The notes under the pieces were generated by a model. The model was not told the DNA's origin. It saw only the letters and a program-made list of their open reading frames with translations, and did not search any database. A DNA stretch of 64,000 nucleotides. Origin: Saprospiraceae bacterium. Lineage in GTDB: Bacteria; Bacteroidota; Bacteroidia; Chitinophagales; Saprospiraceae. Location of the stretch: positions 1-64,000 of the forward strand of contig JALHRR010000017.1 of NCBI GenBank assembly GCA_022841345.1, given 5' to 3'. Position numbers and translations under genes: made by a program. Shown here piece by piece: positions 40,301 through 62,270 of the stretch. Position 1 is the stretch's first letter. Every line of letters starts with the position of its first letter.

Positions 40301-40614
40301 ATACAGAACAATCGGTTAATCGGATAACCGCAGGTCGCGCAGTGAGGAACGAACCTCGCGATCGGTTAATCGAAGGGAGGGTGTGGGTGTGGAGTTGTGA
40401 GTGCGCTTCGTTAAAGCGTGTAAGCGTTGAAGCGGAGTTTGAGTGTTGAGTACAGTGTTTGGTGTAAGTTTTGTCCAAACAGCTGGCCTGTATACATGGA
40501 CGTAGAGACGCAATGCATAAGGTTGAGGCGTAGAGGAGCAGGAAGCAGCCGCTTCTGGCTCTTAAGATAAATCAGATTTGAAAATTCGTATGTTGCTGTA
40601 TCTGTCCCGGATGC
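40301..40614. repeat. Low-complexity GC-rich repeats after the SLOG-like gene
   Basis: ATCGGTTAATCG occurs twice (near 40310 and 40360) around a CGCGCAGTGAGG...CCTCGCG inverted pair. A GT-rich run and several GAG/GTG words follow. No gene is credible on either strand. Confidence 0.45.
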
Positions 40615-40724
40615 AAAAGCGTCACTTTGACTGCTTGCAGTCAAAAATCGTCACCTTTCGGCGAAGCCAATAGATGTCACCCTGCAAGCGCAGCGCAGCA
40701 GGGCGTCACCCGTATTACGACTAA
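40615..40724 (-). repeat. Hairpin array, locus A (GTGAC-separated)
   Basis: Read on the minus strand: a leader TTAGTCGTAATACGG (40710-40724), then four GTGAC words at 40709, 40680, 40654 and 40625 (5' ends), 26-29 bp apart. Each gap holds a different small inverted repeat (CCCTGC/GCAGGG, TTGGC/GCCGAA, TTGACTGC/GCAGTCAA). The leader matches locus B. The 3' conserved end seen at loci B and D is absent. The remainder, 40725-41059, has no gene. Confidence 0.7.
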
Positions 40725-41059
40725 AGCCTGTTAGAACGACCCGCACGAACTCCAGATTCTTCTGGGAATTCTGCAACTATTGGCCGGGAGTGATTCTAAT
40801 CATCACTCATCACTCATAATTTCTTAAGCCAGGAGCCAGAAGCTACAAGATAGAAGCGGCTGTTAAATTGGCTGTTAAATCTGTAACCTCCTATATAACA
40901 CTTTTGCAGAACCCAGATATTCAATAATTTACAATCAACCGAAATGTAAATATTTGGTATAATAATCAAAAACTCAACCTCTTTATGGCTGTTCAATTCT
41001 GAAACCTGATCCCCAAAGCTTTGGGGACGGGGACTGAAATCATAAATCCTCAGTATTAC

Positions 41060-42032: not shown

Positions 42033-42181
42033 GATAATTTGGGCCTCCCCCCGAAAATTCTGTGCAGATACACGGCAAGCCTTGTATCTGCACAGAATTC
42101 CCGGGGTCGCGCTATCCGCTTTACTTCGCAGAGCCGCATATTCATGCGTCTCTGCTTCGTGCCCGCTACTATCGCTGAGGC
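42033..42181 (+). repeat. Two-hairpin element, copy 1
   Basis: A conserved 5' edge (GAT..TTTGGGCCTCCCC) leads to a variable hairpin, AATTCTGTGCAGATACA (42056-42072) with its perfect complement at 42083-42099. Then come constant CGGGGTCGCGCTATCCGCTT, a second hairpin GCAGAGCCGCAT...ATGCGTCTCTGC, and constant GCCCGCT-x-CTATCGCTGAGGC. Other copies are at 46806 and 62118. It starts 6 bp after the stop of the DUF6929-like gene. Confidence 0.85.
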
Positions 42182-42336
42182 AGAGTGAGAGGGAGGTGAG
42201 AAGGTGGGAGTGAGATGGCAATTTTGTAAGGAATAAATGTGCTCAAAATTTGAAAAATCCAGACTTCTATTAACAGCATTTTTGTTATTTTAGCTGATAA
42301 TACACAAATTTTATCTTGACCTAATTTATTTACACA

Positions 42337-46805: not shown

Positions 46806-46951
46806 GATTTTGGGCCTCCCCACCGGGTAATCTGACATTGCAATGAAAGCATATGCAATGTCAGATTACCCGGGGTCGCGCTATCCGCTTTACTTCGCAG
46901 AGCCGCATGGTAATGCGTCTCTGCTTCGTGCCCGCTCCTATCGCTGAGGCG
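46806..46951 (+). repeat. Two-hairpin element, copy 2
   Basis: Same organisation as the copy at 42033. The variable hairpin here is GGGTAATCTGACATTGCA (46825-46842) with a perfect complement at 46854-46871, a sequence unrelated to that of copy 1. It is followed by the constant GTCGCGCTATCCGCTT, second hairpin and GCCCGCT-x-CTATCGCTGAGGC. It lies between divergent genes (46714 minus and 47216 plus). The remaining 46952-47215 shows nothing further. Confidence 0.85.
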
Positions 46952-47215
46952 GTGTGGGTGAGTGTTAGAGAAGGAAAGTTATTCCAGAAAAGAAGGAGAT
47001 TACACATTCAATTTTGAAGGTGGGATTATTTCCAGTATTTCTACTTGTCACATTAGGTAGTTTATCTCTCTAGAACTCCCATTTTACTTGTTATTTTTAT
47101 TAGTGAAAATTTTGGTCTCCTAACAGATGAGAAATGTGGATTTTAGAATTATATTTCTAACTCAAATTTCATGGAAATTACTCGTTTTTTCTTCACTTCG
47201 AAACCCTCCCAAATA

Positions 47216-55532: not shown

Positions 55533-55689
55533 TATATATTATCCTCATATTAAATTATATAATCTCAATTTGCAATTTTTTCATTCAACTTCAGTCCTTT
55601 TTAAATCCCGTGAAAGCAAAATATTTTTTTATTAGCATTTTGTTTTATTTTTTGTTTCCATTTTTGTTTCCTTATGCAAAAGAATCACC

Positions 55690-55803
55690 TGATAATTTGC
55701 AAATTTTTCATGTGTGACAGCAAGATATGTATCGATTCAAAGTAGTCTGCAATTGAATTTGAATTCTAAATTGGCAAATTTATTCTCAATCGTACCGGTC
55801 AAA
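55690..55803. repeat. Diverged copy of the 145-bp repeat of 57705
   Basis: From GATAATTTGCAAATTTTTC to TTCTCAATCGTACCGGTCA the order of words matches the tandem copies at 57705 and 57853, with many substitutions. The rest of 55533-55985 has no gene; 55804-55985 carries GGCTGTT-anchored low-complexity words. Confidence 0.65.
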
Positions 55804-55990
55804 GACTAAGCGCGATCAGCCTCCTCAAAGGATTTGGGACAAGGGAGCAGCGGCTGTTTTGCTGTTCACTTGAAGCTTGAATCTTGAAGCTTTCCCAGAG
55901 GGTTGGTGACACGGTGCAGCTCCTTCCCGGCTGTTCCCTTACGACTTACAACTCCGGCTGCATGCTCCGTTTATAGCAACTCACAATGAA

Positions 55991-56138
55991 TCTTAGTCGT
56001 AACACGGTGACTTTTTTTCTTTGCTTCGCAAAGAAAAAGTGACGTTTTTCAGGGTGCAAGCCCTGAAAGGTGACGTCTCCGAAATAAATTGACTGCGTTG
56101 CAGCCAATTTTATTTCGGAGGTGACAGCTGGCGCATAA
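55991..56138 (+). repeat. Hairpin array, locus B (GTGAC-separated)
   Basis: Leader TTAGTCGTAACACGG, then GTGAC words at 56007, 56039, 56070 and 56121. Between them are three different inverted repeats: CTTTG/CAAAG, a CAGGG/CCCTG stem, and a longer TCCGAAATAA...TTATTTCGGA stem. It ends in GGTGACAGCTGGCGC. The last hairpin is shared with locus C. Confidence 0.8.
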
Positions 56139-56176
56139 TACCAGCAGGCAAGTCATTCATTCTATGTATCTTTATT

Positions 56177-57540: not shown

Positions 57541-57669
57541 GTGATGTCTTTCGGCACCTTCGGTTTGAAAGGTGATGTTTTTTCGTGGAACAAGCCATGA
57601 AAAAGTGATGTCTCCGAAATAAATTGACTGCAAAGCAGCCGATTTATTTCGGAGGTGATGGCTGGCGCA
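57541..57669 (+). repeat. Hairpin array, locus C (GTGAT-separated)
   Basis: Same structure as locus B, but all four separators read GTGATG instead of GTGACG: 57541, 57572, 57605 and 57654. Intervening hairpins differ from B except the last, which shares TCTCCGAAATAAATTGACTGC and TTTATTTCGGA with B. It ends in GGTGATGGCTGGCGC. Confidence 0.8.
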
Positions 57670-57704
57670 AATCACAAAGAGTCGGCTTCTTCCAGGCTAT
57701 TCCC

Positions 57705-57997
57705 CCCTAATAATTTGCAAATTTTTCGTTCGTGGCAACAAGATCAGTATCGATCCAAAGTAGTCTGTAATTGAATTTGACATCTAAATTGGCAAATTTA
57801 TCCTCCCATCGCACCGGTCAGAATGAATGTTCCACAATAGCCCGCTGCATCTCCCTAATAATTTGCAAATTTTTCGTTCGTGGCAACAAGATAAGTATCG
57901 ATCCAAAGTAGTCTGTAATTGAATTTGACATCTAAATTGGCAAATTTATCCTCCCATCGCACCGGTCAGAATGAATGTTCCACAATAGCCCGCTGCA
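57705..57997. repeat. 145-bp tandem direct repeat, two near-identical copies
   Basis: Copy 1 57705-57849 and copy 2 57853-57997, offset 148 bp, from CCCTAATAATTTGCAAATTT to CACAATAGCCCGCTGCA. I see almost no difference between them (GATCAGTATC versus GATAAGTATC). A diverged third copy lies at 55690. No coding frame spans the unit. 57998-58162 holds GGCTGTT-anchored words and CAACGAG heptads, no gene. Confidence 0.9.
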
Positions 57998-59009: not shown

Positions 59010-59196
59010 GGGTGAGGGCGAGGTAGCCTTTGGGCTACTACGCCCCAGGCATCTTGCGGCGCTGCGCTTGCAAGGTGACATCTTTTGGCTGGCGCCAAAA
59101 GGTGACATCTGCACAATTTATTCCCGGCTTCGCCGAAAAAAAATTGAACAGGTGACAGCTAGCGCTCATGACAAGCAAGCAGGTCACATGCATTGA
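59010..59196 (+). repeat. Hairpin array, locus D with conserved 3' end
   Basis: Begins ACGGGTGAGGG, then a GGGCG/CGCCC stem. GTGAC words follow at 59075, 59102 and 59152, separated by stems CTTGC/GCAAG and CTTTTGG/CCAAAAG and a longer stem containing GGCTTCGCC. It ends in GGTGACAGCTAGCGCTCATG then ACAAGCAAGCAGGTCACATG and CATTGAG. This end is shared with locus E. Confidence 0.75.
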
Positions 59197-59369: not shown

Positions 59370-59439
59370 CAGAAGTCAGAAGTCAGAAGTCAGAAGTCAG
59401 AAGTCAGAAGTCAGAAGTCAGAAGTCAGAAGTCAGAAGC
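59370..59439. repeat. Ten 7-bp tandem repeats (CAGAAGT)
   Basis: Nine CAGAAGT units then one CAGAAGC follow the word GGCTGTTTGC. A 4-unit version (CAGAAGC) follows the same GGCTGTTTGC at 61900. The array is non-coding and a likely site of slippage. The rest to 59542 holds no gene. Confidence 0.9.
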
Positions 59440-59542
59440 CAGACTCCTTATCCTGCAGGAATTTTCAACTAACATTTAATTACTTTAAGGTTTTTCAACA
59501 GCATATAGTGTTATTTTACCGTATAGTAATTATTCACTACAT

Positions 59543-61779: not shown

Positions 61780-61835
61780 CTTATTTCGGAGATGTCAGCT
61801 AGCGCTCAAGACAAGCAGGCAGGTCACATGCATTA
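61780..61835 (+). repeat. Hairpin array, locus E (3' fragment)
   Basis: Begins with TTATTTCGGA, the right arm of the last hairpin of loci B and C. It continues GATGTCAGCTAGCGCTCAAG then ACAAGCAGGCAGGTCACATG and CATT. This is the conserved 3' end of locus D without the 5' hairpins. Confidence 0.7.
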
Positions 61836-61927: not shown

Positions 61928-62117
61928 GTTGGGGACAAACAGCAATCAGCAACCATTTTTCTTTGATCAATTTTAGCTGAAAGCTACGGGAAGCAGAGGT
62001 TGGGAGTGGGCTGTTTGCCAAAAGCTAAAAGCCAAAAGCCATATCGATAGAAGCAAAAAAGTGGATATGGGCTGTTTCCTTGAAGCTTGAGCTTGTAGCT
62101 TTTTCTTCCGGCTGTTC

Positions 62118-62270
62118 CGCCTCAGCGATAGGAGCGGGCACGAGTAGAGACGCATTGCTATGCGGCTCTGCGAAGTAAAGCGGATAGCGCGACCCCGAGT
62201 GATATGCACTACAATTATATATTTACTAAAGTGCAACTGCATATCATCTCGGGGGGAGGCCCAAATAATC
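62118..62270 (-). repeat. Two-hairpin element, copy 3 (minus orientation)
   Basis: On the minus strand it reads the same 5' edge (GATTATTTGGGCCTCCCC), then a variable hairpin (CGAG..TGATATGCA..., arms at 62196-62213 and 62232-62251, imperfect). The constant CGGGGTCGCGCTATCCGCTT, the second GCAGAGCCGCAT hairpin and GCCCGCTCCTATCGCTGAGG follow. Confidence 0.85.

Follow-up and report, generated by a model that had tools for sequence, protein, structure and literature searches.

Dispersed arrays of three ordered hairpins between GTGAC or GTGAT tags form a large mosaic repeat family in a Saprospiraceae genome

Descriptions of hairpin repeats in bacteria usually concern single palindromes or dimers. 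The systems closest to the arrays reported here are compared below as the excerpts of the cited papers present them. REP and BIME elements are extragenic, occur in more than 100 copies, have a constant word at the hairpin end, and form dimers of opposite orientation and mosaic composites (PMC3733652, PMC2817692). In the REPs used in PMC6006769 the constant word is GTAG or GTGG and lies 0-2 nt from the stem. The flanks of RAYT transposase genes carry GTAG repeats or other inverted repeats (PMC3733652, PMC6006769), and REPs with the word CGTC are said to have no dedicated transposase (PMC3733652). Transposase subclass 2.6 occurs mainly in Bacteroidetes and does not belong to the subclasses that have canonical REPs in their vicinity (PMC6006769). 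The BOX elements of Streptococcus pneumoniae (boxA-boxB(n)-boxC) are modular composites with fixed ends and internal modules, which share features of MITEs and for which stem-loops are predicted if they are transcribed (PMC3049150). TIGR arrays consist of tandem variable stem-loops with short constant boxes and are tied to a Nop protein (PMC12045711), and a short constant word, TAACTGA, recurs in many sets in Beggiatoaceae, Cyanobacteria and some Bacteroidetes (PMC4679880).

The DNA analyzed here, called the window, comprises bases 1-64000 of contig C17 from a Saprospiraceae genome of 5,869,822 bases in 310 contigs. The initial annotation had described a leader at locus B, followed by GTGAC words alternating with stem-loops and by a fixed end sequence. 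This layout was found as claimed, with four tags, three inserts and a tail, and all three inserts are self-complementary. The arrays of the window are as follows.

55985..56006 (+): leader of locus B (..TTAGTCGTAACACG), homologous to the leaders of other arrays
56007..56011 (+): tag 1 of locus B, GTGAC
56012..56038 (+): hairpin slot 1 of locus B, 27 nt, same sequence in array C16:70504
56039..56043 (+): tag 2 of locus B, GTGAC
56044..56069 (+): hairpin slot 2 of locus B, 26 nt, same sequence in array C16:70504
56070..56074 (+): tag 3 of locus B, GTGAC, junction of two mosaic blocks
56075..56120 (+): hairpin slot 3 of locus B, 46 nt, of the CTCCGAAATAAATTG type that GTGAT arrays carry too, different in type from slot 3 of C16:70504
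56121..56125 (+): tag 4 of locus B, GTGAC
56126..56160 (+): conserved tail of locus B, AGCTGGCGC..CAGCAGGCAAGTCA
40590..40731 (-): locus A, with leader, three hairpins between GTGAC tags (40705-40709, 40676-40680, 40650-40654 and 40621-40625), a short slot 3 and the tail GCTTTTGCATCC
57541..57675 (+): locus D, a GTGAT version with three hairpins (57541-57659) and the tail GGCTGGCGCA
59051..59195 (+): locus E, with three hairpins (59051-59156), tags at 59075, 59102 and 59152, a first tag that by eye has decayed, and the tail AGCTAGCGC..GGTCACATGCATT
61780..61834 (+): 5'-truncated remnant, reduced to the tail and the 3' arm of slot 3

The initial annotation had named four further loci, A, C, D and E, without coordinates, and the names A, D and E were assigned here. 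That they follow the plan of locus B was borne out by the location of A, D and E, except that D carries GTGAT and not GTGAC. The stem-loops had also been called unrelated; this applies to the hairpins within one array, but each slot is homologous between arrays, and within a slot the hairpins fall into a few families of variants and are not a random collection.

GTGAC per se is no commoner in the window than expected (54 matches compared to 56.55), and it is only the phasing of the word with hairpins that exceeds chance. The fold of locus B is stronger than that of dinucleotide shuffles, with z = -6.3 for RNA and -8.0 for DNA. A covariance model was built from 31 sequences of leader, hairpin 1 and hairpin 2, two of which came from the window. 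It matched locus B with E = 2.2e-17 and locus A with E = 4.8e-21, both of which sat among its 31 training rows, and locus E with E = 4.0e-12; locus D, which belongs to the second tag class, was not among its matches.

Other repeats lie close to these arrays. One word occurs five times between 55.9 and 62.1 kb, always on the plus strand, compared to 0.18 occurrences expected:

55927, 58093, 59358, 61888 and 62108 (+): word CCGGCTGTT

A 145-bp repeat has two tandem copies (57705-57849 and 57853-57997) that are 99% identical and a third copy (55687-55831) with 67% identity, and similar sequence is present twice near an array in L071. Another repeat (..GTCGCGCTATCCGCTTTACTTCGCAGAGCC..) was found at 42093-42187, 46862-46956 and 62116-62206, as two direct copies that are 92% identical and one inverted copy. 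A heptamer microsatellite, CAGAAGT, occupies 59370-59446, and by eye similar short runs are found in intergenic stretches. Upstream of the arrays genome-wide, the shorter word CGGCTG is present within 100 nt of 12 of 103 arrays; for a control stretch located 800-900 nt upstream the count is 3 of 99.

A genome-wide search for further arrays had been proposed as a check, and both methods used returned more than 100 copies. The pattern of three GTGAC words separated by two inserts, with a spacing of 18-48 nt, has 176 matches in the genome (90 + 86), compared to 6 (1 + 5) for the reversed pattern, so that the proposed plan of constant words with variable structured inserts recurs throughout the genome. 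The covariance model found at least 140 copies over dozens of contigs, which is a lower bound because 150 of the 1108 candidates were scored. We extracted 103 arrays, 68 of which end in a GTGAC tag and 35 in GTGAT. With relaxed chaining, 85 of the 103 have three hairpin slots; of the remaining 18, seven have an insert after the third tag and several others have mutated tags or weaker stems. The chaining cut-off, a hairpin score of at least 5, is permissive, since 347 of 1199 random segments of the window reach it with looser offsets, and the evidence therefore rests on the tags and on covariation.

The basic element is about 200-230 bp long and has the order leader-GTGAC-hairpin 1-GTGAC-hairpin 2-GTGAC-hairpin 3-GTGAC-tail. 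Each tag is followed by two bases, usually AT, GC or GT, and then by the stem. With wobble allowed, this R-Y pair could form base pairs with T and G in the tag that follows, and neighboring hairpins may therefore nearly abut. The tail starts with AGCT or AGAT in 34 of the 103 arrays. In one class it reads AGCTRGCGC...GCAGGCAGGTCACATRCATTACATC; many copies of this class contain an inverted tag, and by eye the tail looks like an inverted leader. The same resemblance to an inverted leader was seen by eye at the end of solo elements with an AGCT tail.

Seven arrays carry an additional small hairpin,.CGAGG...ACAAGT or variants of it (the AGCGAGGTTCG...CTACAAGT type), which directly follows the third GTGAT tag. 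Its exact place can be seen from a comparison of C34:27388, which has the insert, with C1:303169, which does not:

L136:1957-1986: extra small hairpin in array C34:27388

A palindrome similar to this hairpin lies near position 40360 of the window, where there is no array. Several arrays, for example C24:5838, C24:21675 and C97:6864, have a partial duplication upstream of them, which breaks off near the tip of hairpin 1. These duplications and the precise insert after the tag fit breaks at tags and hairpin tips, but are no proof of them.

In addition to the basic element there is a composite form of about 400 bp, in which two arrays face each other with their tails around a core. Among the 103 arrays there are 14 such tail-to-tail pairs within 600 bp, and two cases of the opposite type are, by array positions, neighboring composites flanking a gene for a PF05635 protein. 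The composites resemble MITEs and TIRtrons in their inverted ends, their size of about 400 bp and their short core without a recurrent gene. They differ from them in that the apparent inverted repeats are hairpin arrays whose sequences are unlike on the two sides. Among the GTGAC composites examined, the slots of one array measure 26-27, 25-27 and 27-45 nt and those of its partner 24-28, 21 and 25-26 nt. A parent transposon, as expected for MITEs, was sought among the genes within 1.2 kb of the 103 arrays, and no recurrent gene was found there.

Modules have been exchanged between arrays. Locus B and array C16:70504 have identical slots 1 and 2 and a slot 3 of different types; likewise, C1:303555 and C34:27834 share slot 1, have a nearly identical slot 2 and differ in slot 3. 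In 129 of 2211 array pairs one slot is at most 0.10 apart and another at least 0.45 apart. Distances between arrays were compared slot by slot in 67 of the 103 arrays, 44 of which belong to the GTGAC class. Within these 44 arrays, distances correlate between hairpins 1 and 2 (0.47) and between hairpin 3 and tail (0.62, both p = 0.001), compared to 0.01 for hairpins 2 and 3 (p = 0.43), 0.01 for hairpins 1 and 3 (p = 0.36) and 0.13 for hairpin 1 and tail (p = 0.018). The link between hairpin 3 and tail partly reflects the small number of tail classes. With all 67 arrays of both tag classes, hairpins 2 and 3 correlate at 0.13 and hairpin 1 and tail at 0.17 (both p = 0.001); differences between the tag classes may account for part of this residual correlation, and block independence is therefore clearest within the GTGAC class. 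GTGAC arrays are thus mosaics in which the block of hairpins 1 and 2 and the block of hairpin 3 and tail assort independently, though incompletely, and the idea that copies have exchanged hairpin modules is supported for this class. The CTCCGAAATAAATTG type of slot 3 is common to GTGAC and GTGAT arrays, and together with the pairs that share slots 1 and 2 and differ in slot 3 this indicates that blocks were exchanged at the third tag. Distances in the leader and in hairpin 1 are uncorrelated in GTGAC arrays (-0.01), contrary to what the simple movement of entire elements would predict.

The stems of the hairpins stay paired through compensating changes. In an alignment, 10 of 17 consensus pairs have both sides changed in at least one sequence. 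In 30 of 57 arrays, pairing was compared to 2000 shuffles that keep the column composition and do not control for shared ancestry, and at 13 of 27 stem positions no shuffle matched the observed pairing. Strong folding and covariation would also be expected of a structured RNA, such as a 3'-UTR element, an attenuator or an sRNA expressed from intergenic sites, with selection acting on its hairpins. Some features of the arrays fit such an RNA: 12 of the 51 upstream genes on the same strand end 32-44 nt before the first tag, the R-Y pair after a tag can, with wobble, pair with GT in the tag that follows, and one of two terminator-like sites around locus B (0.5 expected) lies in hairpin 1, at 56013-56039. 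The arrays are, however, not oriented to the upstream gene, which is on the same strand in 51 cases and on the opposite strand in 49 (three of the 103 arrays have no upstream gene call). Furthermore, stem mismatches on the array strand are A.C at 29 distinct positions, compared to 14 for G.T (54 and 15 as raw counts; tallied from 63 arrays with three chained hairpins, which are related, so that positions are not independent). This is the reverse of what is expected for an RNA read from that strand, and pairing of a sense-strand RNA is therefore not indicated; the paired stems may instead be due to DNA hairpins, to template switching or to pairing on the complementary strand. The window has no Rfam match at gathering cut-offs, and the only three matches at locus B (E 0.2-0.24) are all far below gathering scores. 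We consider a structured RNA unlikely and regard maintenance of the hairpins in the DNA as more likely than maintenance through a sense-strand RNA.

The arrays are intergenic, and only one of the 103 overlaps a gene call when genes are called with a simple codon score. Similarity between loci ends mostly near the ends of the element, and the flanks differ. The 60 best-scoring array pairs are 68-94% identical, and none of them that joins different loci exceeds about 94% identity, which gives no sign of current mobility. Candidate 6-bp target-site matches were seen by eye, without statistics, in two composites only; because neither an empty site nor a certain target-site duplication was found, insertion is deduced from the dispersed copies alone. 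Solo arrays have both orientations (44 plus and 30 minus genome-wide); among pairs of solo arrays that share a contig, 47 of 82 agree in orientation, no more than by chance (p = 0.15), which gives no sign of a replication-strand bias. The 190 proteins encoded within 1.2 kb of the 103 arrays contain no family of three or more, and they tie no transposase or recombinase to the arrays. Taken together, the arrays probably make up a large family of mobile, non-autonomous DNA elements of the REP, BIME, BOX and MITE kind, which are non-coding and lie between genes. In such a family, a trans-acting enzyme would recognize the tag and the hairpin foot in single-stranded DNA and thereby spread the copies, by analogy to REP transposases, which recognize a guide word beside a hairpin, and the repeated tags would be the places where recombination or template switching produces the mosaics.

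This enzyme might be one of the Y1 transposases of the genome, which would make the arrays REPs mobilized in trans by RAYT-like proteins. A linked Y1 or RAYT-type transposase had been suggested as something to look for. The genome has four Y1_Tnp matches, and a guide word just 5' of the hairpin foot is a hallmark of REPs (PMC6006769), to which GTGAY, two nt from the stem, is similar in form. An unusual guide word would not be odd in this phylum, since subclass 2.6 is concentrated in Bacteroidetes and is not listed with those that have canonical REPs close by (PMC6006769). The search, however, revealed no such link: about 1.5 kb on either side of the four Y1 genes contains no array, unlike the RAYT genes of GTAG-class REPs, which the repeats flank, the best Y1 gene bears different flanking repeats of its own, and the tag is not GTAG, GTGG or CGTC. 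Mobilization by these Y1 proteins is thus improbable. At one locus (L059, C4:141249-144590) a Y1 gene lies between two direct copies of a palindrome-rich sequence that by eye is unlike the GTGAC arrays.

Genes for PF05635 proteins, the family of the 23S rRNA intervening-sequence protein, lie beside some composites. The genome has 12 PF05635 matches, 11 of them over the cut-off, and two (C24:21291 and C2:106728) are sandwiched between two composites:

L034:2280-2636 (C24): PF05635 gene between composites, an array starts shortly after its stop codon
L067:1501-1809 (C2): PF05635 gene between composites, an array starts shortly after its stop codon

A third match, C29:54275, has a GTGAT array within 1 kb. 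In relatives, 28 PF05635 loci, which are part of the matches there, showed no comparable tag arrays in a hairpin-chain scan read by eye, and the proximity is therefore treated as a side observation.

The hairpins and their copies could also have been created and kept by template switching during replication and by recombination between repeats, with no transposition at all. Template switching can create and maintain RNA hairpins (excerpt of PMC8794818), partial upstream duplications stop near the tip of hairpin 1, and two other Saprospiraceae have a tag array with different numbers of tandem units. Alone, however, these processes do not account for a three-slot element at more than 100 places with different flanks, which makes this explanation rather unlikely next to mobile elements.

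The initial annotation had regarded the layout as the reverse of CRISPR. This comparison is not supported: three slots are present in 85 of 103 arrays, the inserts are homologous slot families and not unique spacers between identical repeats, and no protein family recurs within 1.2 kb of the arrays. The units of TIGR arrays are variable and consistently palindromic and have small constant boxes (PMC12045711), as in the arrays described here. The GTGAC arrays, however, are dispersed in more than 100 short copies, and the genome has no match to the Nop domain (PF01798), whose profile matched 4 of the 14 genomes used as controls. It is accordingly very improbable that the arrays store guide RNAs or a memory in the manner of CRISPR or TIGR arrays. 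An integron-type array of attC sites would likewise present repeated structured intergenic sites, several of them in one orientation within the window, but the arrays occur in both orientations genome-wide (44 plus, 30 minus for solo arrays) and on dozens of contigs, the attC core motif is not apparent, and no gene family recurs within 1.2 kb. We see hardly any likelihood for this explanation either.

Among described repeats, the statement that the layout resembles no element that could be named was too strong, since REP/BIME, BOX and MITE-type repeats are relatives in kind. The arrays differ from REP and BIME elements in their tags, GTGAC or GTGAT, and in having three different hairpins in fixed order and direct orientation with a leader and a tail. 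BOX elements are set apart by their description: the number of boxB modules varies, whereas in the arrays the number of slots is nearly fixed, at three in 85 of 103, and the hairpins in these slots differ and are exchangeable. The TAACTGA word is a heptamer and not GTGAY, and the abstract of PMC4679880 mentions no ordered hairpin slots. No word beginning with GTGAC is present in the main text of PMC3733652, and no description of GTGAC-tagged hairpin arrays was found in listings of open-licence PubMed Central papers. The element is therefore filed as a variant of the REP/BIME/BOX kind and not as a member of any of those families.

The exact slot-3 pattern was not found in the named-genome collection, which may omit the present genome. 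Its sole exact match in viral contigs lies within a long reading frame and was taken as chance, so that a viral source was rejected. One listed genome of the same genus has a single 100-bp match to 19.9 kb of the window. Within the family, the hairpin-trio model matched 8 other genomes among 248 (best E 3.2e-6); in this search 17 candidates per genome were scored with stricter filters, which recovered 17 of the 140 matches of the present genome, and weak relatives may therefore be missed. Of the loci that were partly read, those in G222, G108 and G098 are tandem units with GTGAC- or GTGAT-type words, the locus in G168 is a long palindrome with GTGACATC-type words, and the others looked ordinary; in several loci the stretch that was read was not the match. 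Three GTGAYRYC words in an array were found in 17 of 248 family genomes, including the present one, compared to 3 of 248 for the control. In the order, such a pattern was present in 26 of 396 genomes, again including the present one, compared to 13 of 396 for the reversed pattern, and the tag pattern alone is therefore weakly specific; several of the order-wide matches read like coding sequence or simple repeats.

Tandem arrays of tagged units of 16-27 bp are present at several loci each in G222, G108, G194 and G098. The only named match to these units is JAEUUQ010000380.1 (Saprospiraceae bacterium isolate new MAG-359). G108 and G194, two species of another genus of the family, share an orthologous pair of converging arrays around a core. 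Along one side of this locus the two align with 93.7% identity over 772 bp, whereas the array on the right consists of three tagged units in one species and nine in the other. In both genomes (L210 and L213) a tag array starts where the gene upstream of it has its 3' end, and by eye the reading frame in L210 appears to run into the first units. Only a similar tag and the converging layout would link these tandem arrays to the hairpin trios. It is conceivable, though doubtful, that in a subset of Saprospiraceae GTGAYRY marks sites at which an enzyme that belongs to neither a CRISPR, an integron nor a RAYT system inserts, swaps or duplicates short modules. Such an enzyme would yield hairpin trios in the present genome, tandem units of 16-27 bp in some of its relatives and converging pairs around a core in both.

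The present genome has more than 100 copies in which three different hairpins follow a fixed order, although blocks have changed places between copies at a tag of five bases and pairing in the stems is maintained. The arrays thus provide about 100 natural replicates for the question of whether hairpins are kept by a DNA-binding enzyme, by template switching in replication or by a function of the RNA. The tag arrays of some other Saprospiraceae and the difference in unit number between two species make this question of maintenance testable.
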